Virus record (IMG/VR): IMGVR_UViG_3300030102_003518
Span: 1-21,089 of that record
DNA from: a virus
Length of the DNA: 21,089 nt
Strand: one strand, 5' to 3'
Positions 7,194 to 20,247 of this stretch are shown in pieces (position 1 is the stretch's first letter; each line of letters opens with the position of its first letter). The notes beneath the pieces are model-generated. The model was not told where the DNA came from and made no database searches. It worked only from the letters and a program-made list of their open reading frames with translations. Made by a program: the position numbers and the translations under genes.

Positions 7194-7928
7194 ATGGCAG
7201 TAAGTATAGACACGGTTTATCAAAGAGTATTAGCAATGGCTAATAAAGAGCAGAGAGGTTATATTACTCCTCAAGAGTATAACTTACTTGCCAACCAGGC
7301 TCAGATGCAAATATTTGAGAGCTACTTCTACTTTCTAAACACAAGAGAAAGAAACGAGCCTGATAGAAAAATAGAAGTAGACGAAACAGATATTACAGAA
7401 TTAATATCTGCAAAACTAGATCCATTTAGATCTATAGCGCCAGTAAGTGGCGGCACTAATTTTCAAAGCACAATATCGGTAGATGGAACTGAGCACGAAG
7501 TGTTTCAGACAGGTAGAGTATTTCATAATGGAGACGTATGCCAGAAAGTGGATGTTAATGAAGCTAGACGATATACAAGATCAATAAGACATCTTGCTAC
7601 TACTGCTAATCAAGGAGCTATTTATTGTGATAGTACTAGCAGCGGTCAAGACATAAACGTGTTTGCTGGATCATCTACAATAGAGTCCAACGTAACTGCA
7701 GAATATTTTAGAGTGCCTACAACTGTTGACTGGGCATATGTTGTTGTTAGCGACGTGGCTTTATATAATGCTAACGTAGCTGTGAACTTTGAGCTGCACA
7801 GATCGGAAGAAGATACACTAGTTAACAAAATTCTTGAATTAGCTGGAATTACTATAGCTAAGCCAGGTTTATCTCAATACGCAGCTGGTTTGGCAGCTGG
7901 CGAAACAGCAACTCAAAATATAATGTAA
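7194..7928 (+). CDS. Probable head-tail connector / ring protein
   Basis: This 244-residue protein probably belongs to the neck of a short-tailed virion, attaching below the portal. Its N-terminus (SIDTVYQRVLAMANKEQRGY, then ITPQEYNLLANQAQMQIFE) resembles a virion protein type that recurs in crAss-like and uncultured marine phages directly ahead of a second adaptor gene. That opening looks helical. Residues about 80-215 look beta-rich, with VAVNFELHRSEED near the end. The C-terminus (LELAGITIAKPGLSQYAAGL) is helical. The family is recalled from motif and context, not verified. It is separated by one base from the next gene, suggesting coupled translation. An accessory head protein is an alternative. 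Confidence 0.6.
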   Translation: MAVSIDTVYQRVLAMANKEQRGYITPQEYNLLANQAQMQIFESYFYFLNTRERNEPDRKIEVDETDITELISAKLDPFRSIAPVSGGTNFQSTISVDGTEHEVFQTGRVFHNGDVCQKVDVNEARRYTRSIRHLATTANQGAIYCDSTSSGQDINVFAGSSTIESNVTAEYFRVPTTVDWAYVVVSDVALYNANVAVNFELHRSEEDTLVNKILELAGITIAKPGLSQYAAGLAAGETATQNIM

Positions 7929-7929
7929 A

Positions 7930-8868
7930 ATGGGTATATTAAGAACAGATCCGTATACGTATTACGACAATACAAGTCCTGATTTTGGTAGATACCAATT
8001 TATCAGTTTAACAGAAATTATAGATTCTTTTTCAGCTACATATGTAGGTAAAGATAAAATTTGCGATAATGTTACTTTAAACGATATTACGTTTCACGCT
8101 ATAAGAGGATTACAAGAATTAAGCTATGATACCTTGAAATGTACAAAAAGCTGGGAAGTAGAGATACCTTCTAGCTTAGTTTTAGTTATGCCTATAGACT
8201 ATGTTAATTATGTAGGTTTATACTGGGCTGATGATAGTGGAGCGTTAAGAAGAATATATCCAACATCTAAAACAGCTAACCCGTTTGATGTTAGTCAAAC
8301 TGTACAAAGTTTTGGTGGCTTTGATACAGGCGGAGCAAGTCAAGATTTGACTAGAACAGCTGCTGATTCAGATGGTAACTTTGGCTCTACTACTTTTGAA
8401 AACTATAAGTCAAACACAACTTCTGATATTGGTGATCAAGATGCAGATGAAATAGATGATCAATACGGTGAGTTATTAGGAGGTAGATATGGACTTGATC
8501 CACAGTACGCTCAAGCTAACGGAACGTTTTTTATTGATGAAGAACAAGGTAAGTTTCATTTTAGCTCTAGCTTAAGTGGAAAAACTTTAGTCTTAAAATA
8601 TATTAGTGATGGTGTAGCAAGCAATGCCGCAGGCACTGCTTTAGACTTAAGCAACTCTTTAGTGCCTAAGTTTGCTGAAGAAGCAATATATCAGCACATA
8701 TTATACGGAGTACTTTTTGCTAAAAAAGATACTAATCAAGGCCTACTGTCAGAGATAAAAAGAAGAAGATTTGCTGAAACAAGAAAAGCAAAAATAAGAT
8801 TATCAAATTATAAGCTTGAAGAGCTTACGCAAGTATTAAGAGGAAGTTCTAAAATTATTAAGCACTAA
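7930..8868 (+). CDS. Probable ring / tail-tube adaptor protein
   Basis: This 312-residue protein is probably a second neck or ring component, comparable to the tail-tubular or gp4-like adaptors of podoviruses. Visible features are a helical region near residues 50-72 (LNDITFHAIRGLQELSYDTL), a beta segment (SWEVEIPSSLVLVMPIDYVN) with the pattern shared by such adaptors, a disordered Asp/Gly/Thr-rich loop near residues 120-185, and a helical, strongly basic C-terminus (EIKRRRFAETRKAKIRLSN). All 13 Arg codons are AGA, in sharp contrast to the capsid gene. It starts 1 base after the previous stop and ends 2 bases before the giant tail gene, so the three probably form one translational unit. The placement supports the neck role; the exact ring layer cannot be told. 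Confidence 0.6.
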   Translation: MGILRTDPYTYYDNTSPDFGRYQFISLTEIIDSFSATYVGKDKICDNVTLNDITFHAIRGLQELSYDTLKCTKSWEVEIPSSLVLVMPIDYVNYVGLYWADDSGALRRIYPTSKTANPFDVSQTVQSFGGFDTGGASQDLTRTAADSDGNFGSTTFENYKSNTTSDIGDQDADEIDDQYGELLGGRYGLDPQYAQANGTFFIDEEQGKFHFSSSLSGKTLVLKYISDGVASNAAGTALDLSNSLVPKFAEEAIYQHILYGVLFAKKDTNQGLLSEIKRRRFAETRKAKIRLSNYKLEELTQVLRGSSKIIKH

Positions 8869-8870
8869 GC

Positions 8871-11800
8871 ATGCCAGAATTAAAACGTACATTTTCTAAA
8901 GCCAAAATGAACAAGGACATGGACGAACGTCTTGTTCCTAAAGGTGAATATAGAGATGCATTAAATATAGAGATAGCTACATCAGAAGGATCAGACGTTG
9001 GTACTGCTCAGTCTTTACTAGGTAATACTCTTCAAAACACTATGAATTCTAATAACGGCGTTTATTTTAGCGCTGATGATGTTACGTCTACCGCTACATG
9101 TGTTGGATCTATAGCAGCACCAGATAGAGACGCTGTATATTACTTTGTATCTAACGGTGATTTAAACAATAGCACTGGATATCCTACAATTAGAAAAGAT
9201 TTTATTATTGAATACAACACTGTATCTCAAGATTTAAAATATGTTTTTGTAGATATATTCGAAGTTAATACTTCACCTAATGCTAACGTTAACGGATCGA
9301 GCGTGGTAGCTGTAGAGCTTGGAGCTGGAAACACTACCAATATTACTGGTATAAGAGAAGGTATGTACGTAACTGGTACGTTTACTAACGCATCTGGTAG
9401 TAGCCAAACTATACTTGGTCAAACTGTAGCTAACGGTGCTACTTATACAGTAACAAAAAACGATAACGTTAGAGTAACTGGCCAATCATACACTGGTAAT
9501 AGAACTTATACGCTTAGCGAGACTTTATATTTAGCAGACGCTGATACTATTACGTTTGAAGCAGATAGAGTATTAGAGTTTAATAGAAATGTTGTAATCA
9601 CTGGTATTAATATATTAGATGACTTTATATTCTGGACAGACAATGTTCATGAACCTAAGAAAATTAATATAGAAAGATCTATACTAGGAACTGGTGGTAC
9701 TACTCAAGACTTGATTGCTGGTAATGGTAACTTTACTTTTGACGGTAGCACACCTTATTTTCATACGAGATTAGTTCTTGATAAAGAGGCTACACATCAA
9801 GTTCTTTCTACCGTTACCGTAAGTGGAGGTGATACTTTGCAGGTAGCTATAACACAAAACACAAGCGGTGATGTAGCTCCAATATACGTAGACTTAAGTC
9901 ATGTTACAGTTATCAGAAAAGCTCCAACTCAACCACTTGAGCTTGATATGTATAGAACGTCAGTAGCAAGAGTTAGAAATAATGGTGATGAAAATCCTCC
10001 ATACGCTACTCAAACTGGCCAATCGTATATGCAAAGTGGTAATACGCCTTATGACGTTGGAGATCAAATACCAGTTTCTTTTGATCAAGAAGTAGACTTT
10101 AGAGTTGGTGACATAATTCTTATAACATATCAAGAAGACGTTTATACTAATGATTCGTTTGACGATTATCAAATTAGAGCTGAAGTTGTAGATTCTCAAG
10201 TTATTGGTCCTAACGTATTATTTAGTACTGGCTTTACAATTAAAATATTATCTATAGACGAAAGCTTAGCTCCATTAACAGATTGGCACGTAAGACTAGA
10301 AGACAAAGATCCTTTGTTTAAATTTAAGTTTCCTAGATTTTCTTATAGATATAGATATCAAGATGGAGAATACTCTCCTTTTGCACCGTTTTCGCAGATA
10401 GCTTTTTTACCTGACATGTTTGAATACAAGCCTAAAAAAGGTCATAACATAGGTATGGTAAATCAGCTTAGAGGATTAGTGCTAAAATATTACAAGCACA
10501 GAGATTATCAATATAGCTCTACTGATTATCCTATATTTCCACAAGACGTAGTAGAAATAGATATACTTTATAAAGAAACAAATAATCCTGCTGTATATAC
10601 CGTAAAGACTATTAAAAAATCTGATGGTGCGCCTTTATGGCCTTCTTATACAACTACTGAAGACGGAGCAACACGAGCGGAGTTTGAAATAACTACAGAT
10701 ATGATACATAATGTAGTGCCTTCAAATCAACTTATAAGACCTTATGACAATGTTCCTAAGAAAGCTTTAGCTCAAGAGATAAGCGCTAGTAGATTAATAT
10801 ATGGTAACTATACTCAAGGTTATGATGTTAAAAACGATCCTTTAATTCGTGTAGGTATTGACCACCAAGACATTGCTTTTTCTACAAACGTACCTACTGA
10901 TGGCTTAAAATACGCTCTACCATCAGTAAAAACAATGCGTAAATATCAAGTAGGAGTAGTATTTAGCGATAGATATGGTAGAGAAACGCCAGTTATTACA
11001 TCTAAAAACGCTAGTATAAATGTACCTAAAAAGTTTTCTGAAAATTTTAATAGATTAGTTTGTAATCTTGATAAAAAAAATGGATCAGTTCCTTCATGGG
11101 CTGAGTATATGTCTTGGTACGTTAAAGAAATTACAACAGAGTATTACACGCTTGCTATGGATAGGTGGTATGACGCTGCCGACGGTAATATATGGATATC
11201 GTTTCCATCTGCAGATAGAAACAAGCTAAGTGTAGAAGATTATCTAATACTTAAAAAAGAGCACGGTAAAGATAAAGCTGTTAAAGAAAAAGCTAGATAT
11301 AAAATTCTAGATATAGATAATGAAGCTCCAGATTGGATAAAAACTAAACGTCAAAGCCTAGGTGTAGTAAATAATCCACCATTTCCACAAGGTATTATTG
11401 GTAACACTAACGAGGGTTTTCCATTACAAGGGACTAGGCATATTGATATGCCACTTACAACATTTGAAAATGTTTACGGAACTCTTGAAGAAATAAGAAA
11501 TCTAGAAAATACATCAATAGTTATTGCTGGAGGACATCAAGAGGTTAGCGGCGTAGGTAGAGCAGAATATATAGTTGAGACGTACACTTTACAAGGTGAC
11601 GACACTGTTAGACTAAGCATAGAAGGATTTTTTGGAGATGAAATAAGTTTTACTACTTTAAATGGAACTTTCCCTACTCACGTTAATAACTTAACGTTTG
11701 AACTAGTTAAGCGTACTGCAGCTCCTAGACCTGAGTTTAACGGTAGATTTTTTGTAAAAATATTTAAAGACAGAGCTTTAGAAAAATATATTTTAAGATA

Positions 11801-14800
11801 CGAAGAAGCTGTTAATTACAGTATTAATGAAAGTATAGGACTACGCTATATAAACAATAACGCTTATAGTAATCTTCCTGCGCCTACTGCTGATAATCCT
11901 ACGCCTTCTATTCCAACAGATCTTAAGTATGCAGCTATGTTTGATAGTGACGTATCGTCAGTTACGGCATCTTTTGCGCCGTCTTACGGTTTAGCAGATA
12001 GATCTCAACACCCGACAGAGGCGTTTCATATATCAAATACTCTTGGTGCATATCTTTGGGGTAATGGTATTGCAGCTCACAATGTGTACCGTGAGTCTGT
12101 GAAAGACAATCCTATGTTGTCTCTTAATTACGGTGCTTTTCAACACGATCAAAATTTTGATAGTGCTTCTCAGTTTTGGGAATACGTTGCAGAAAGTACA
12201 GATGCTTTTATAGACTGCTGTACTGCTTACACGCTTACTGGTGAAAGATGGGACGCAGGAGTTGGTCACCCAGAATGGCCAGAGATAAATACCACCGAGC
12301 AAATTAATTCTTATGGTCACTCAGATTCTCCTGGTAGTAGGTATCAACCTAATTTTCCAGCTTGGGGATCTTCTGACTCTCCTCCTATTCAAGAAGGTGT
12401 AAACTATATCCACTATAGTTTTTGGGGTTCAAGAGATGGATTAGACATGCCTAGCCAGGTAAATCCTTTTTCTAACAACAACTCACCTGTTGCTAACAGC
12501 GCTATAGGTAATGCTTTGTGGGATAATCCGTCTACAATAGATAACTTGTATTTAAGAAATAGAGGTAATCCAAGTAGAGGTATATGGAATAATGGCCGCT
12601 GTATGGATATATCTTGGAGCGGTATTAGAGGTGGCTATTGGGATGGACCTAACAACGGTAATTCGTCTCCACCACCTTTAACAGTACAAGACGCAGACTC
12701 TAACGAAGCAGGTCAAAACCAGTTCCGAGATAAGATGGAACTGTTAATGAATCCTGGTTGTAAGTTTAGGTTTAGAGATGATCCTGACGCAACTGTATAT
12801 ACAGTAGAAAATAATACTTATCCAGGTTATCCAGAAAACTCTGGCACAGGTAGCGAAACTGACGCAGAAAACCTTAGACCTTTTAACGCATCGGTTGGAG
12901 GAACGAGTTATGATTACGGAGTTTGGGGAATACGTAACTACGTAGAAGGTGTACAGTATGATGTTTCATTTTTTACAGGTGATTTTAAAGACGCGTGTAG
13001 AGAACTTAGTAATGAACGATGCCTTCGTCAGAGATGGACTGTATGGGTTACTCCACCTATAGGCAGCGGTCCTTCAGGTTATAATCCTATTAGAGGTACA
13101 GTAAATGAAAATCCTTATTTGCTAGATGGCGAAACAAGTAATCCTAGATTTAGAAGAGCTTTACATCACGACTTTACTAATTCAACTCAAATAGATATAT
13201 TAAACGAAGATACAGCTATATATAAACAAGGAACTTTTACTGAAGAGCCTGGCATATGGGAAACTGAGCCAAAAGAAACAGTAGATTTAGATTTATATTA
13301 TCAAGCTAGTGGTTTAATACCTTTGCATATTACACACGAAAATAATGAAGAGCTTATACCTATAGGCTCTACATTTAGAATACACTCGCAAACTCCTGAA
13401 AGTACAGCTTCTACTTTCCACACAGTAACTAAAGTAGAAGATAATAAAATCACTTTTACTCCTGCTACTCACGTATCAGATACTTTCTTACAGCTTGAAG
13501 AAGGCGATACTGTAAAATTTACAAAAAGAAATTTTTATACGTTTGAGTTAGTCGCAGACGAAGCTACTGGTCTTAATAATACTACTCTTCATCTTAAAGG
13601 AAAGAAAGGTGTAGTAACACCTTTAGATCAAAGAGTATATACTCAACTTCACTACTTAGACTGGAACAACTGTTGGGCGTTTGGCAATGGTGTAGAGTCT
13701 GATAGAATAAGAGATGACTTTAACGGTACTCAAATGGATAACGGTGTTAAAGTATCTTCTACAACGCTTAGCGCGATAGAAGAAGAAACTAGAAAGCACG
13801 GTATGATATATTCTGGTATATACAACTCTACTTCTGGTGTAAATGACACTAATCAATTTATCGCTGGTGAAAACATAACAAAAGATTTAAATCCGGTACA
13901 CGGTAGTATACAAGCTCTTTTAAATAGAAACACTAGACTTATCATGTTCTGCGAAGATAAAGTTCTTAGAGCAGATACAAATAAAGATCTTATATTTAAT
14001 GCTGATGGTAATTCACAGCTTGTAGCTAGCAATAAAGTAATAGGTAGCACAGTGCCTTATAAAGGTAAATACGGTATAGCTACTAATCCAGAATCTCTTG
14101 CTGCAACTCCATATGCGGTTTACTTTGCAGACGCTATGAGAGGCGCGGTATTGCGACTTACTAATGAAGGTATAGTTAATGTGTCTGATTTCAATATGAA
14201 AGATTATTTTGCAGACATATTCTCGTCTTATGTTGATAGAGTTATAGGAACATATGACGACAGAAAAAAGGAGTATAATATTTCTATATCTAGAGCTTAC
14301 GAATCTGGTGATTCTCCATTTAATCAAGTAACAGTTTCTTATAGTGACAAAGCAAAAGGCTGGACTAGCTTTAAATCTTTTTATCCTGAGTCTGGTGTAA
14401 GTATAAATAATCAGTACTATACGTTTAGTAGAGGTGAAATATATAGACACCATAGTAATGATGAAAGAAATAACTTCTACGGTGTAGCTGCTGCAAGTCA
14501 AACATCAAATACTATTTTGCCTTTTGACACTAGTAACGCTACTACAGGTGACTCTTCTATTACTGTGTTATTTAACGATAGACCAGAGGAAGTAAAGTCT
14601 TATATGACTATAAACTACGAAGGTAGTGAAAATAGAATACAAGAGTTTGATACTCAAGTAGCTAACTTTTATAACAATAACTATGAAAGCAACGATGGGT
14701 TAGTTTCTACATCTGTAACTGATGGTGAATACTATAATCTTGACGCTCAAGCTGGTTGGTATGTAGATAACATAACTACAAATTTACAAGCTACAGAAAA

Positions 14801-17255
14801 TATATTCTTTAAAAATAAAGAAGGAAAATACTTTGCATATCCTAAAGGATCAACAACAGGTTTTGAAAGCGTAACAGTTAGCTCTGGATCAAGTGTACCA
14901 AGTATTAATGAAGTAGCTTTAAATAAAGAAGCTAAAGATTTTACTGTTCAAGGTTTAGGTAACGCTAATATATTACATAGCGATTCCAACGCTAAACCAA
15001 CTATATTTATAAACGTACAAAATAACGTATCTAATACATATAAAAAAGACGGCGGTAGTTCTGGTAGTGAGTATGATGCTACGTCTGATTCTAATAGCTG
15101 GAGAACAGATCCTTCTGTTTTCTCCACTTGGTACGGTCTTGATGATACTGTAATACCTGCAAATCAATCTGTAGATTTAACAATAACACCCGTACTCGCT
15201 GGAAATATATATAGTGGTATACCTGTTTCAGCTAGTAACTTTAAAATTGGTGGAGCTACTTATAACTCAGGAACGAATACGTGGTCTGGAGGTAATATGG
15301 ATTCACCAATAGCAGGCGTTCAATTTACAGATAACGGTGTTGCTGGAGAAAGCTCTAATACTGTAAATGTAAAATGTTTACTAAACACAGCTTATACTAC
15401 TGATGGAAATCAAACAGTATATATTGATATTGATCAAGTTGTTGTAGACGAAGGTAGAAGAAGATCAGCAGGTATAAAAACAGTATATCAAATATATGGT
15501 TCTGAAGTACAGACTGATCCAACGGTAGCTAACGGTAGAGTGTTTGATTTAACAGATATTACAGAATCTGGATTTCAAAGCGGATCTAATCCTCCAGCTA
15601 ATCCTTTGCTAGGGCCTTTAGATCAAGTAGTACCAACTAGCATTATAAATAGTCATATAGCAAACAATCTTGATCCGTTAATTACTACGCCTCAAGAAAT
15701 AGCTAAGATTAGATTTGAAGCTACTAGTCCATACTATTACTTAGCTGGGCAACAACCATACGTAGATTTTGAAATACCTAGCGGTAGCCCATTAGAACCT
15801 TATTATTCGTATGAGGTTACAGACCATGTGTATACTACATTTACAGGTATTGATGGATCGTTTTTAACTGATTTTACTGTTAGAATATTTTTTACTATAC
15901 CTCAAGATCCTGAGCTATGGAATGATTTGTCAAATATACAATACTTATCTCACATTGCTAATATTGTATATACACCTTTGTTAGGTCCTACAGAGCCAAA
16001 TCATATAAAAAGTGTTACATATAGTAAGTCTTGTCCAAGTGAAGGTGGTGAAAAAGAAATAAAAGTATACGGAGAACAAGATACTACATATAAAGTCTGC
16101 GTTGAAAAGAAACAAAGCAGAACGTCTTCTAATACAGTTGCTACTGGTGGATATTACAATTTTGAAAATCATAGTTTTCAAGATGACAAATATGATGTAG
16201 TACAAAAAATCAAAAAAGGCGGAGTTAACTCTCACTACTTATGTTTACCTAAATCTACATCAGATGTTAGGTATGATATTACAATAGTACCTGTAAACAG
16301 TCCTAGTGGCGGAACTGCTACTGTAGCTAGCGGTGTTCCAACAGTACCTGGAGACGCTACTTTAACTCAATATGGAGAAAGAACTCTTACGTTAACTCCT
16401 GTTAGCGATAGCAGCTCATATGATACTATGCCTACTCAAGCTATAAGTAGGCCTGTACAAATACCTAGATACAGCTATAATGAGTCTTATGGTAAATCTG
16501 TTAATATTACTGGAGGTACTGCTGGTTTAAGTACAACTGAACTTAGTCTTGATATTCCAAGTGAAGACATAAGAACTGGTATGTTAGTATATGATCCGTT
16601 TGGTTCTAGTACAATACCATTACAAACAACTATAACTAGAATAGTAGATGAAGTTGTAACTTTATCAAACTCTGTAACAGTAGCTGATGGTACTACTCTT
16701 CGTTTTACTGAAAACAATGGTACGCTTACTCCATTTAGTTTAACTGTACAACCTGCTGCTGGTAAAACAATAAGCTTAAAATCAGATAAATCTTTTACTA
16801 ACTCAATTAATGCTAGATCTTCGTTTGCTTTTTCAGTAACTACAAGCGGCTCAAGCACTACACTTAGAACGAATAAATCACCGCGAGGTGTTGTGGCTGG
16901 TATGAAACTTTACGGTAAAGATATAGTTAGCACAACGCTTGACGAATATGGCCCATTTTTAACTGTGCAATCAGTCGGCTTATCAGCTAGTACAATCATT
17001 GTAGATCAAGCGCAAAACCTTTCTACTAGTACTGAAGTTTCAGCTCAACACATTAAACCTGATTCAAGTTCAGAATATTCTGCAGGAACTAATGAGGATT
17101 ACGCTTCTAGCACTTTTAACAAAGTTATTCCAAAGCATGTTCAAGCTAAAATTGAAGATGGTAACTTAATAGTTGAAGGATATATACAAATTAAAAAGAT
17201 AGGTATTGATACTCCTATTAATATTCACATTGACGACTTTGCATCAATAAATTAA
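8871..17255 (+). CDS. Giant muzzle / DNA-stabilisation-type tail protein
   Basis: This 2,794-residue protein probably closes the tail tube and carries host-contact parts. The core looks like the muzzle or gp10-like stabilisation proteins of crAss-like phages. Core signatures are MNKDMDERLVPKGEYRDALN and EGSDVGTAQSLLGN (residues 13-52), RFSYRYRYQDGEYSPFAPF (about 490-510), YQVGVVFSDRYGRETPV (about 691), RPEFNGRFFVKIF (about 948), EPKETVDLDLYYQASG (about 1466), FADAMRGAVLRLTNEG (about 1752) and GWTSFKSFYPESGVSIN (about 1830). The strand-rich repeats fit a beta-propeller. Between about 990 and 1460 lies an insertion with 13 Trp in roughly 330 residues. From about 2000 to the end, Ser/Thr/Gly-rich beta domains form a fibre-like extension. 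No intein or membrane segment is seen. Fusion of tail core and receptor-binding modules is inferred. Confidence 0.75.
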   Translation: MPELKRTFSKAKMNKDMDERLVPKGEYRDALNIEIATSEGSDVGTAQSLLGNTLQNTMNSNNGVYFSADDVTSTATCVGSIAAPDRDAVYYFVSNGDLNNSTGYPTIRKDFIIEYNTVSQDLKYVFVDIFEVNTSPNANVNGSSVVAVELGAGNTTNITGIREGMYVTGTFTNASGSSQTILGQTVANGATYTVTKNDNVRVTGQSYTGNRTYTLSETLYLADADTITFEADRVLEFNRNVVITGINILDDFIFWTDNVHEPKKINIERSILGTGGTTQDLIAGNGNFTFDGSTPYFHTRLVLDKEATHQVLSTVTVSGGDTLQVAITQNTSGDVAPIYVDLSHVTVIRKAPTQPLELDMYRTSVARVRNNGDENPPYATQTGQSYMQSGNTPYDVGDQIPVSFDQEVDFRVGDIILITYQEDVYTNDSFDDYQIRAEVVDSQVIGPNVLFSTGFTIKILSIDESLAPLTDWHVRLEDKDPLFKFKFPRFSYRYRYQDGEYSPFAPFSQIAFLPDMFEYKPKKGHNIGMVNQLRGLVLKYYKHRDYQYSSTDYPIFPQDVVEIDILYKETNNPAVYTVKTIKKSDGAPLWPSYTTTEDGATRAEFEITTDMIHNVVPSNQLIRPYDNVPKKALAQEISASRLIYGNYTQGYDVKNDPLIRVGIDHQDIAFSTNVPTDGLKYALPSVKTMRKYQVGVVFSDRYGRETPVITSKNASINVPKKFSENFNRLVCNLDKKNGSVPSWAEYMSWYVKEITTEYYTLAMDRWYDAADGNIWISFPSADRNKLSVEDYLILKKEHGKDKAVKEKARYKILDIDNEAPDWIKTKRQSLGVVNNPPFPQGIIGNTNEGFPLQGTRHIDMPLTTFENVYGTLEEIRNLENTSIVIAGGHQEVSGVGRAEYIVETYTLQGDDTVRLSIEGFFGDEISFTTLNGTFPTHVNNLTFELVKRTAAPRPEFNGRFFVKIFKDRALEKYILRYEEAVNYSINESIGLRYINNNAYSNLPAPTADNPTPSIPTDLKYAAMFDSDVSSVTASFAPSYGLADRSQHPTEAFHISNTLGAYLWGNGIAAHNVYRESVKDNPMLSLNYGAFQHDQNFDSASQFWEYVAESTDAFIDCCTAYTLTGERWDAGVGHPEWPEINTTEQINSYGHSDSPGSRYQPNFPAWGSSDSPPIQEGVNYIHYSFWGSRDGLDMPSQVNPFSNNNSPVANSAIGNALWDNPSTIDNLYLRNRGNPSRGIWNNGRCMDISWSGIRGGYWDGPNNGNSSPPPLTVQDADSNEAGQNQFRDKMELLMNPGCKFRFRDDPDATVYTVENNTYPGYPENSGTGSETDAENLRPFNASVGGTSYDYGVWGIRNYVEGVQYDVSFFTGDFKDACRELSNERCLRQRWTVWVTPPIGSGPSGYNPIRGTVNENPYLLDGETSNPRFRRALHHDFTNSTQIDILNEDTAIYKQGTFTEEPGIWETEPKETVDLDLYYQASGLIPLHITHENNEELIPIGSTFRIHSQTPESTASTFHTVTKVEDNKITFTPATHVSDTFLQLEEGDTVKFTKRNFYTFELVADEATGLNNTTLHLKGKKGVVTPLDQRVYTQLHYLDWNNCWAFGNGVESDRIRDDFNGTQMDNGVKVSSTTLSAIEEETRKHGMIYSGIYNSTSGVNDTNQFIAGENITKDLNPVHGSIQALLNRNTRLIMFCEDKVLRADTNKDLIFNADGNSQLVASNKVIGSTVPYKGKYGIATNPESLAATPYAVYFADAMRGAVLRLTNEGIVNVSDFNMKDYFADIFSSYVDRVIGTYDDRKKEYNISISRAYESGDSPFNQVTVSYSDKAKGWTSFKSFYPESGVSINNQYYTFSRGEIYRHHSNDERNNFYGVAAASQTSNTILPFDTSNATTGDSSITVLFNDRPEEVKSYMTINYEGSENRIQEFDTQVANFYNNNYESNDGLVSTSVTDGEYYNLDAQAGWYVDNITTNLQATENIFFKNKEGKYFAYPKGSTTGFESVTVSSGSSVPSINEVALNKEAKDFTVQGLGNANILHSDSNAKPTIFINVQNNVSNTYKKDGGSSGSEYDATSDSNSWRTDPSVFSTWYGLDDTVIPANQSVDLTITPVLAGNIYSGIPVSASNFKIGGATYNSGTNTWSGGNMDSPIAGVQFTDNGVAGESSNTVNVKCLLNTAYTTDGNQTVYIDIDQVVVDEGRRRSAGIKTVYQIYGSEVQTDPTVANGRVFDLTDITESGFQSGSNPPANPLLGPLDQVVPTSIINSHIANNLDPLITTPQEIAKIRFEATSPYYYLAGQQPYVDFEIPSGSPLEPYYSYEVTDHVYTTFTGIDGSFLTDFTVRIFFTIPQDPELWNDLSNIQYLSHIANIVYTPLLGPTEPNHIKSVTYSKSCPSEGGEKEIKVYGEQDTTYKVCVEKKQSRTSSNTVATGGYYNFENHSFQDDKYDVVQKIKKGGVNSHYLCLPKSTSDVRYDITIVPVNSPSGGTATVASGVPTVPGDATLTQYGERTLTLTPVSDSSSYDTMPTQAISRPVQIPRYSYNESYGKSVNITGGTAGLSTTELSLDIPSEDIRTGMLVYDPFGSSTIPLQTTITRIVDEVVTLSNSVTVADGTTLRFTENNGTLTPFSLTVQPAAGKTISLKSDKSFTNSINARSSFAFSVTTSGSSTTLRTNKSPRGVVAGMKLYGKDIVSTTLDEYGPFLTVQSVGLSASTIIVDQAQNLSTSTEVSAQHIKPDSSSEYSAGTNEDYASSTFNKVIPKHVQAKIEDGNLIVEGYIQIKKIGIDTPINIHIDDFASIN
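9321..9560 (+). repeat. Beta module A in the giant tail protein
   Basis: Residues 151-230 contain the pattern [TT..I.G(I)REGM.V.G ... T ... LADADTITFE]. It resembles modules B and C at the other end of the same protein, sharing the R-x-G-M-x-V core, a Thr-rich strand and a closing hydrophobic strand. Its position inside the N-terminal core suggests a loop insertion. Similarity is by eye. Confidence 0.45.
16524..16709 (+). repeat. Beta module B in the giant tail protein
   Basis: Residues 2552-2613 carry GLSTTELSLDIPSEDIRTGM, then LVYDPFGSSTIPLQTTI, VTLSNSVTVADGTTLRFT. The order (Thr-rich strand, R-T-G-M, V-T-L-S, D-G-T-T-L) is a small beta module common in marine phage tail proteins. It lies 44 residues before module C. 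Confidence 0.5.
16842..17045 (+). repeat. Beta module C in the giant tail protein
   Basis: Residues 2658-2725 carry SGSSTTLRTNKSPRGVVAGM, then KLYGKDIVSTTL and TIIVDQAQNLSTSTEVSA. It matches module B in order: Thr-rich strand, V-A-G-M, a T-T-L segment and a closing strand. It probably arose by duplication of the same fold; DNA identity is low, so the event is old or the modules were acquired separately. Confidence 0.5.
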
Positions 17256-17259
17256 TAAC

Positions 17260-17649
17260 ATGCCATACGCAGAATTAACATTTACAGCTCCATTGAACGT
17301 GTCTTGCCAAGTAGGTGATACAGCCTATTATTGTAATACTAGCTCAGGTACTAGCGCTGATGGAGGATTTACTAACCAGTCAGGAAGCATAGTAGAAATA
17401 GGTGAGATAAGAGAAATAAATAATAGAAATAGTAATACTCCTACAATAAAGGTAGAAACTACACTGGGTTATTCTGAGTTAGGCAGCGCTGCTGGTTTGT
17501 CTAATCAATTTATATTGTTTAACAAAAACAATAAAGCAAATCTTAGTTCACCTGCTGGATATTTTGCTAGTGTAAAACTAGTAAACAACTCTAGATCTGA
17601 GTCTGAGCTGTATTCTGTTGCTATGGAAGTGTTTGCTAGTAGTAAATAA
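17260..17649 (+). CDS. Small virion protein, probably tail-associated
   Basis: This 129-residue protein has no named domain that I recognise with certainty. It appears to be mostly beta strands: AELTFTAPLNVSCQVGDTAY near the start, GSIVEIGEIREINNR in the middle and YFASVKLVNNSRSESELYSV near the end. The ending, with ILFNKNNKANLSSPAGYFAS followed by a VKLVNNS-type strand, recalls small structural proteins encoded near tail genes of uncultured marine phages. Cys15 and Cys25 could pair, though phage proteins fold in a reducing cytoplasm. It begins 4 bases after the giant tail gene, and so is probably translated with it. A tail decoration or fibre-adaptor role is plausible but inferred. Confidence 0.55.
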   Translation: MPYAELTFTAPLNVSCQVGDTAYYCNTSSGTSADGGFTNQSGSIVEIGEIREINNRNSNTPTIKVETTLGYSELGSAAGLSNQFILFNKNNKANLSSPAGYFASVKLVNNSRSESELYSVAMEVFASSK

Positions 17650-17694: not shown

Positions 17695-18189
17695 ATGGCT
17701 AATAATAGTTTAAACAAAAGCAACAGTCAATTAGTAAAAAACTTTAGATCTTCTATAACAGAATTAGAAAATAAATTTAAAGAAGCTGCTGACGGTAAAA
17801 ACATAATTGTAGGTACTAGTGATAATCCTATAATACCTAATAGCGATTTATGCGCGTCTGAATCTTTATTTGCTGACGGCGTTTACGCTAGAGAGATGTT
17901 TGTAAAGCAAGGCTGCATTGTCATTGGTGCTATACATAAGCACGAGCACATAAGCTTTCTTATGTCAGGTCATTTAACCGTTGTAGATGAAAACGGAGCT
18001 TCAGAGCACAAGGCTCCAAGCGTAATAGTAGCTGGACCAGGAATAAAACGAGTTGCGTATGCGCATGAAGACACCATATGGTACAACGTACATAGTAATC
18101 CTACAAACACTACTGACTTGAAAGAACTAGAAAAAGAAATAATCGTAGCTAATTATGAAGAATATGATGATTACATTAAAAATAAATAA
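17695..18189 (+). CDS. Cupin-like protein in the virion block
   Basis: This 164-residue protein appears to carry a cupin beta-barrel at about residues 60-135. Motif 1 is GAIHKHEHISFLMSGHLTVV, with His81, His83, His85 and the Gly92 turn. The usual Glu of the H-x-H-x(3,4)-E motif is missing (Ser87 near its place). Motif 2 is around PSVIVAGPGIKRVAYAHEDT with His124, and His133 follows in WYNVH. Several His could still bind a metal. The N-terminus (about 1-35) is polar and helical; the C-terminus is acidic (ELEKEIIVANYEEYDDYI). Comparable small cupins occur in marine T4-like and other phage genomes, function unknown. It lies between tail and internal virion genes, so a structural or enzyme role in the particle is possible. 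A late, non-virion enzyme is also possible. Confidence 0.65.
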   Translation: MANNSLNKSNSQLVKNFRSSITELENKFKEAADGKNIIVGTSDNPIIPNSDLCASESLFADGVYAREMFVKQGCIVIGAIHKHEHISFLMSGHLTVVDENGASEHKAPSVIVAGPGIKRVAYAHEDTIWYNVHSNPTNTTDLKELEKEIIVANYEEYDDYIKNK

Positions 18190-18939: not shown

Positions 18940-20247
18940 ATGTCTAATCATACAACACGATCAGCAAGAACTTTAAACTACACTTTAAACCCTGATACTT
19001 TAAATAGAATGAGGGCAGCCAATTTAGCGACTGCTAAAGTAGATTCTATGAAAGCGCCTGGCGGCAAAGGATTTGGTGCAAACATATCACCTGATATTTT
19101 AAATGCCACTAAACTAGTTGCTACTACAGCTATAGACTTCAAAAAAGCTTTAGACGAAGGTAAAGAAGCAACGCGTGTACTTAAAGAAAAGTTTAAAAAC
19201 GCAGAACTTACTGAAGGGTGGAATACAGTAGAACTAAAAGAGCAAGTTACTACAGCAGAAAAAGATCGCCAAACTCGTTATAACATTGCTGTAAGAGATG
19301 GTGATAAAGCCGAGCAAGAAAAAATACTTGAAGAGCAGCAGGTAGCTGTTGCAGCATTTGCTAAGCACGATGCTTTGGGTAAAACTATTATAGATACTCA
19401 GAAAAACGTAGGTTTTATTGATAATGAAAACGCTTTTCCAACAGCTGATAAATATTTTTTAGGTGAATATGCTGACCCTAGAAATTTAATGATTATAGAT
19501 ACTAACATAGATGGTAAGAAAGACGGTATCACCCGCATGGGCGTTACGTATCAAACAACTGATGCTGATAAACCAGGTTATATAAGCGAGCAAGAAAAAT
19601 CAGATTTACTTTCAGACAAAAACAGTGGATTCCGTATGATTGACGGTAAGTTAGTAAGAGCATTAACTACATCTGAGGTAACTGACATGCTTGGTAATGC
19701 TACGCTACCTACTGTAGAGGCTAATGAAATAGAAAAAAACATACAAAGATTAGAAAAAGAAAAAGGTAAAGCTGAAGATACATACAACTTCAATAATGAA
19801 ACGATAAGTAGTTCTTTTGGTTCTATGATAACAGAAGGTAATAGCAAAAAGATGATGTATGGTGATTTAAGCATGGGTACTACTTTTGCGCAAGACTTTT
19901 TATTACACCCTGATTTTGAAGCAATGGCTATAAACGAAGATGGGTTTAACAATATATCTCTTACAGTACCTAAAGATAATACTGGTAAAGCTCTTGGTGA
20001 TGCTGACGGAGACGGTATACTTACAGTAAAAGAGATGAAAGCTGCTGCAGATCCTGATGTAAGAAAGCTGATATTAAAAGAATTAGAGAAGCCTGAAAAC
20101 ATTGAGATATTAAAAGCTTACTGGGGTGAGTGGGCTATGCTAAAAGCAAAAGGAAGACTTGATGAAGTTAATAAAGGTGGAGTAGCTAATGTACCTCCTT
20201 CGTCTACTGCTGTAACTTTAGGTGGTAAAACCAACAATAATAGATAA
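18940..20247 (+). CDS. Probable internal virion protein with EF-hand-like loop
   Basis: I do not recognise the family of this 435-residue protein. Residues about 62-145 are helical and charged. The outstanding feature is a perfect EF-hand-type calcium loop at residues 354-365 (DADGDGILTVKE), with acids at positions 1, 3, 5 and 12, Gly at 6 and Leu at 8. A helix follows (MKAAADPDVRKLILKELEKP), but a clear entering helix is not obvious. A second loop at residues 187-198 (DTNIDGKKDGIT) has a DxNxDGxxD pattern, as in dockerin-type calcium loops. The C-terminus is loose and ends in GGKTNNNR. Its place between the Ala/Gln-rich gene and the last gene suggests an ejected or cargo protein. Calcium binding is inferred from the motif alone. 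Confidence 0.55.
   Translation: MSNHTTRSARTLNYTLNPDTLNRMRAANLATAKVDSMKAPGGKGFGANISPDILNATKLVATTAIDFKKALDEGKEATRVLKEKFKNAELTEGWNTVELKEQVTTAEKDRQTRYNIAVRDGDKAEQEKILEEQQVAVAAFAKHDALGKTIIDTQKNVGFIDNENAFPTADKYFLGEYADPRNLMIIDTNIDGKKDGITRMGVTYQTTDADKPGYISEQEKSDLLSDKNSGFRMIDGKLVRALTTSEVTDMLGNATLPTVEANEIEKNIQRLEKEKGKAEDTYNFNNETISSSFGSMITEGNSKKMMYGDLSMGTTFAQDFLLHPDFEAMAINEDGFNNISLTVPKDNTGKALGDADGDGILTVKEMKAAADPDVRKLILKELEKPENIEILKAYWGEWAMLKAKGRLDEVNKGGVANVPPSSTAVTLGGKTNNNR

Follow-up and report, generated by a model that had tools for sequence, protein, structure and literature searches.

The window, i.e., the whole stretch of 21,089 nucleotides of viral DNA analyzed here (IMG/VR record IMGVR_UViG_3300030102_003518), carries a muzzle-type gene of 2,794 residues on its plus strand (Table 1). 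The gene opens with ATG and is found as an identical, uninterrupted frame in a 24.9 kb virus record, which confirms as one open frame the single gene that an earlier reading of the letters without database searches (the sequence-only reading) had described. Directly upstream lie two genes which, judged by their position, may encode ring or tubular proteins, while a Pfam search of both gave no ring-protein match. The muzzle of phicrAss001 likewise stands directly behind ring-protein genes, and phi38:1-type phages share the gene order of the window from the terminase onward. Further downstream, at 18940-20247, a 435-aa protein contains a single EF-hand/dockerin-like motif (DADGDGILTVKEM) that scores under the Pfam cut-off.

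Table 1. Features of the muzzle-type gene and its surroundings (positions in the window, residues of the encoded protein).
Feature	Residues	Position	Strand	Basis
Two upstream genes (244 and 312 aa), ring/tubular by position		7194..8868	+	PHROG virion structural; phi38:1 gene order
Whole muzzle-type gene, 2,794 aa	1-2794	8871..17255	+	PHROG, profile and structure matches
Conserved N-terminal muzzle signature	1-52	8871..9026	+	hhalign to crAss001 gp44 2-52; invariant columns
Smaller third expansion	150-330	9318..9860	+	Mostly missing in comparison muzzles
Putative IG2/crass equivalent	629-1635	10755..13775	+	7qok_A 293-1022, Z 6.2, 264 residues, rmsd 4.8
Block 1, probably an enlarged variable stretch within the crass domain	985-1455	11823..13235	+	Conservation, alignment, model
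C-terminal propeller blades	1666-1863	13866..14459	+	7qol_P 1024-1244, Z 13.5, 170 residues, rmsd 3.1
crAss_MUZ_C-like segment	1894-1990	14550..14840	+	PF25729, 17.3 bits, below cut-off
Fusion joint (YDATSD)	2068-2073	15072..15089	+	Related split muzzles stop here (..WDATAD)
Block 2, adhesin-like all-beta module	2074-2794	15090..17252	+	Stand-alone gene in many relatives
First module domain	2078-2209	15102..15497	+	Secondary structure, pLDDT, junctions
Beta-sandwich resembling macroglobulin (MG) domains	2375-2502	15993..16376	+	Complement C5, Z 8.6-8.8, 106 residues
Terminal hairpin (..VEGYIQI..INIHIDDFASIN)	2742-2793	17094..17249	+	Ends most fused and separate slot proteins
g129, small gene always behind the muzzle/slot genes in these relatives		17260..17649	+	Gene order
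Cupin-like gene, 164 aa		17695..18189	+	PHROGs "short tail fiber protein" and "tail fiber adhesin"

Muzzle identity and nearest relatives

The ORF encodes a muzzle-type tail-tip protein. It matches PHROG 14478 (virion structural) with an E-value of 2e-111, and in profile comparisons it aligns with phi38:1-type muzzles over residues 1-2047 (E 1e-115) and with the crAss001 muzzle over residues 1-52 and 1670-1918. The link to Crassvirales muzzles was obtained with hhalign (98.5% probability, 221 columns) and also via the phi38:1-type muzzles as a bridge. For structure prediction, the contiguous residues 590-1640 and 1600-2794 were folded separately, yielding models of moderate confidence (mean pLDDT 70, pTM 0.41-0.51). 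The crAss001 muzzle was the top solved structure for the model of residues 1600-2794 (Foldseek E 5e-6; Z 13.5), other podovirus tail proteins ranking just behind, and by this predicted-structure match a beta-propeller of the crAss001 muzzle or T7-type nozzle kind is present.

Because its scores miss the curated cut-offs, the protein falls outside the Pfam filing under PF25731 (crAss_MUZ), for which the Pfam search gave no match, and PF25729 (crAss_MUZ_C), whose cut-off of 27 is exceeded by the outgroup flavophage muzzles phi38:1 and elemo. Direct sequence searches of the PDB returned no matches, and the Pfam tail-hub models THA and THB, which matched crAss001 only and missed even phi14:2, were uninformative here.

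Searches of isolate phages with tblastn gave matches in phages of Flavobacterium, Cellulophaga, Tenacibaculum and Maribacter and in one uncultured podovirus, and among the matches listed none extends past residue 1992; the host of the window phage is probably a member of the Bacteroidota. According to NCBI, the nearest annotated kin belong to the Pervagoviridae, the Pachyviridae and Elemovirus, all outside the order Crassvirales, the closest annotated relatives being the flavophage muzzles phi38:1 gp097 (Pervagoviridae), phi13:2 gp120-121 (Pachyviridae) and those of the Flavobacterium elemo phages. Flavophage muzzles measure 1,324-1,613 aa and continue for ~85-120 aa past the MUZ_C segment, compared with ~800 in the window protein. 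Uncultured marine relatives in IMG/VR (L001-L148) belong to the same family, with full-length identities of up to ~60%; the nearest of them, L001-L004, are fused like the window muzzle. The likeness to phicrAss001 gp44 (1,371 aa; 7QOK/7QOL) resides in the N-terminus at the profile level and in the propeller blades at the structural level, the alignment over the IG2/crass range being weak, and gp44, unlike the window protein, has no C-terminal module.

Conservation along the protein and the nature of block 1

The core signatures named by the sequence-only reading lie on or next to columns that are invariant in a 19-member alignment, i.e., N14-N52, F487-R493, R690-Y692, G958, E1464, D1754-R1757 and G1830. 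Across 29 relatives, residues 1-1000 and 1451-2000 show an occupancy of 68-100% and an identity to the window of 18-76% per 50 aa; at residues 1001-1450 and 2001-2794 these values drop to 39-84% and 8-29%, respectively, so that the two low-conservation blocks were correctly placed. Compared with L001, the core is 71-75% identical, block 1 48% and the tail 53%. Both blocks thus diverge faster, which could also stem from a loose structural constraint.

The claim that the protein is oversized for its family holds against the Crassvirales muzzles examined (1,340-1,503 aa) but not within its own marine clade, as 11 of the 92 marine and outgroup muzzles, which range overall from 1,324 to 3,359 aa, are longer. 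In a similar manner, the two blocks explain most of the excess length but not all of it: measured against L116, a minimal relative of 1,424 aa used as gauge, another ~200 residues are located in the first 590, most of them around 150-240 and 300-330. This smaller third expansion, which the earlier reading had not named, is mostly missing from the minimal relatives, phi38:1/elemo and crAss001/phi14:2.

In crAss001, two stretches inserted into IG2, at residues 453-904 and 940-1012, make up the crass domain; length differences among muzzles arise by insertions in the crass and IG2 regions (PMC10172136). Residues 990-1460 of the window protein align with about residues 610-891 of crAss001. The structural match over the IG2/crass equivalent is weak when taken alone, since end to end it reaches Z 6.2-6.3 over 245-264 residues, no better than unrelated rows, with a Foldseek E of 0.07, yet it is consistent with the profile map. 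In the model of residues 590-1640, small-barrel structure matches cover residues 757-1468 and flank block 1 on both sides. Based on the crAss001 alignment, the weak whole-range model match and these flank-spanning small-barrel matches, block 1 is most readily interpreted as a variable, enlarged portion of a domain that belongs to the muzzle itself. This speaks against its earlier description as an accessory module inserted into the core, as the predicted fold of the crass/IG2 domain does span the block, if weakly, an outcome that the sequence-only reading had itself listed as refuting. Among the proteins compared, block 1 varies in length from 180 to 774 aa; its middle (~1122-1232) is modeled with pLDDT <50, and no Pfam domains were found in it, neither in the window nor in ten relatives. 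Variation of this type within muzzles has been described before, and block 1 probably belongs to it.

A separable C-terminal module

For the C-terminal block, the proposal of an accessory module was borne out by its occurrence as a stand-alone gene in many relatives and by a modular boundary at ~2074. In 30 relatives the muzzle stops just before block 2, and separate ORFs occupy the slot before the next conserved gene; about a third of the IMG/VR marine relatives carry the module as a separate gene, unlike the window. The slot proteins of split relatives begin just before the position equivalent to residue 2078. In L008, L033, L041 and L058 the muzzle stops at the equivalent of residue 2073 and the next gene starts within ten bases, and the junctions of L084 and L109 look alike, while other breakpoints lie after the first module domain (L024, L037, L046) or after ~residue 2215 (L007, whose sister L012 is fused). 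Minimal relatives (1,409-1,500 aa) end ~17-36 aa past the core; in most of them, one or two ORFs come next and then g129. An HMM built from fused tails only matched ten slot ORFs at E 4e-62 or better and gave weaker matches in L100, L094, L119, L088, L117, L104, L122 and L137, the matches lying nearly always directly behind the muzzle.

On a 92-row FastTree, fused and split states interleave with at least six changes by parsimony, and the deepest marine branches are mostly split. A single split clade within the clade of the window was rejected (AU p 0.0081), for a group that was not picked wholly blind to the tree. We conclude that one block is probably native variation, and that the other is a separable module which has been joined to the muzzle repeatedly.

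In isolate phages, tblastn with the slot proteins of L008 or L005 found no match to the module. Virus NIOZ-UU157, listed with two proteins in BFVD (A0A7S9SUA2, A0A7S9SUB0), is probably in the split state: its muzzle record shows 41% identity over 369 columns, and its 568-aa protein matches the window model over 610 columns (Foldseek, BFVD), a match that would fall in the window tail because of its length. The muzzles of phi13:2 and ctfjg026 (L063 and L064) are split elsewhere than those of the marine relatives, namely within the propeller, with MUZ_C carried on the second gene; the two muzzle parts of ctfjg026 are separated by a gene for a "putative glycosidase" of 183 aa. In the clade of L115, L132, L127 and L059, an ORF of 500-700 aa is found after the g129 homologue and not before it, and the tail that the muzzle carries in fused form is a different one; the L115 ORF in this position matches the fused-tail HMM (E 4e-13).

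Several candidate mechanisms were rejected. Programmed frameshifting at the ~46-nt ORF overlaps of L008, L033 and L041 was dismissed because the overlap is an artefact of extending the second ORF upstream to a TTG, an ATG being present one base past the stop. An insertion of the module before the ancestral muzzle C-terminus was discarded, as the terminal hairpin compared with the C-terminal ends of phi38:1 and crAss001 did not outscore shuffled profiles. The idea that a split intein links the muzzle to the slot protein was dropped as well, since the Hint domain of L096 looks complete and is C-terminal and the start of the next ORF does not resemble an intein C-part.

The window tail is predicted to be all-beta, mostly with pLDDT 70-96, and the pTM of 0.41 leaves the arrangement of its domains unconstrained. 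One of its beta-sandwiches is of the MG type (Table 1), a common sandwich fold. No matches of the window module were obtained in Pfam or PHROG, in contrast to relatives of other lineages, whose slot proteins or fused tails contain Ig-like (Big_9), cadherin, fn3 or Hint domains: Big_9 or cadherin scored above the curated cut-offs in the slot ORFs of L096, L107, L090, L134, L141, L124 and L105 and in the fused tail of L092, and fn3 in the fused tails of L115 and L132. Host contact would be the most likely role of the module. The muzzle relative at L096:10001-19087 (3,028 aa) ends in a complete Hint domain (VHNKG; PF07591 above cut-off), a self-processing domain of the intein/hedgehog type.

Proposed role of the module and rival explanations

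The explanation we favor, and hold to be fairly probable, is that the window belongs to a marine crAss-like podophage and encodes its tail-tip muzzle together with a separable beta-domain module at the tip touching the host. Residues 1 to ~2045 would constitute the conserved muzzle, with a ring-joining end, a beta-propeller gate and an enlarged IG2/crass domain including the block at 990-1460, and residues ~2074-2794 would form a string of beta-sandwich domains, corresponding to the separate gene at the equivalent slot in other members. The module would be located at or near the tail tip and touch the host surface. In the fused state, each muzzle subunit would carry one contact arm, tying recognition to the opening of the gate, and in the separate state the module would bind there as a subunit of its own. 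Surface exposure, receptor contact and coupling to gate opening are properties that we infer. More tentatively, and with some doubt, we propose that repeated fusion and fission let a host-contact module alternate between a covalent part of the gate and a separate subunit, by which recognition could be wired into the gatekeeper. Host sensing and tail opening in crAss-like phages are still under debate, contact between muzzle and cell being a proposal of the published structure; a clade in which the module is sometimes fused to the gate offers natural experiments on the coupling of recognition and gating. For annotators, very long "structural proteins" in this group correspond to a muzzle plus the slot gene.

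A purely structural module, which would stabilize, cap or extend the tail tip or serve as a docking site for other fibers without binding a receptor, appears rather unlikely to us, although relatives with fused muzzles also hold separate tail-fiber ORFs, Ig-like and MG-type sandwiches are common spacers, and the terminal hairpin is retained in fused and separate forms, as an assembly contact predicts. Against it stand the different domains found in the slot in different lineages and a tail that changes faster than the core, both more typical of host-contact parts. Post-translational cutting of the fused chain, by which fused and separate genes would yield the same two proteins and the fusion would have no functional meaning, could account for the interchange of both forms on the tree and would agree with the Hint self-processing domain ending the L096 muzzle; we nevertheless regard it as improbable, as the window protein shows neither a Hint nor a protease domain and the L096 Hint sits at the C-terminal end, away from the joint.

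Ordinary muzzle length variation, with both blocks as crass-domain-type insertions and nothing fused, is highly improbable as a common explanation: the described insertions in the crass and IG2 domains (PMC10172136) fit block 1, for which it stands, but it is refuted for block 2, which follows after both the propeller and the MUZ_C segment and in many relatives forms a gene of its own. All the split forms come from metagenomic contigs, so that they could be artefacts of sequencing or assembly and the gene always fused. We consider this extremely improbable, since L008, L033 and L041 have the same TAA-T-ATG junction in front of modules that are only 82-91% identical, in other split relatives the stop is followed by an A-rich leader and then by an ATG opening MANWT or MADWY, and L024, L037 and L046 have their later breakpoint in common.

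The sequence-only reading had further supposed that receptor binding is built into the muzzle and not carried by separate fibers, and had noted that no separate fiber gene was visible. This inference is not supported, because L013, L018 and L019 have fused muzzles and yet their records encode ORFs with a Peptidase_S74 tail-fiber chaperone domain above cut-off, the one in the L013 record also matching tail-fiber PHROGs. As the window comes from a fragment of 24.9 kb, a missing fiber gene says little. The gene at 17695..18189 has fiber-related PHROG matches, but a fiber reading is weak since its product resembles a small cupin, only weak cupin matches being found in the PDB. L003 is closely related to the window, and a 489-aa ORF in its record shares its N-terminus with a fiber-like appendage protein of the L006 record, which may be a tail or head appendage. 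The L006 record also contains, at L189:11723-14725, a protein of 1,001 aa whose start resembles a signal peptide and which has a MAM domain and a Por_Secre_tail (type IX secretion sorting) domain. Two related phage records carry chaperonin-like ORFs of 520 aa, GroEL-like by eye (L190:5445-7004 and L192:11309-12868).
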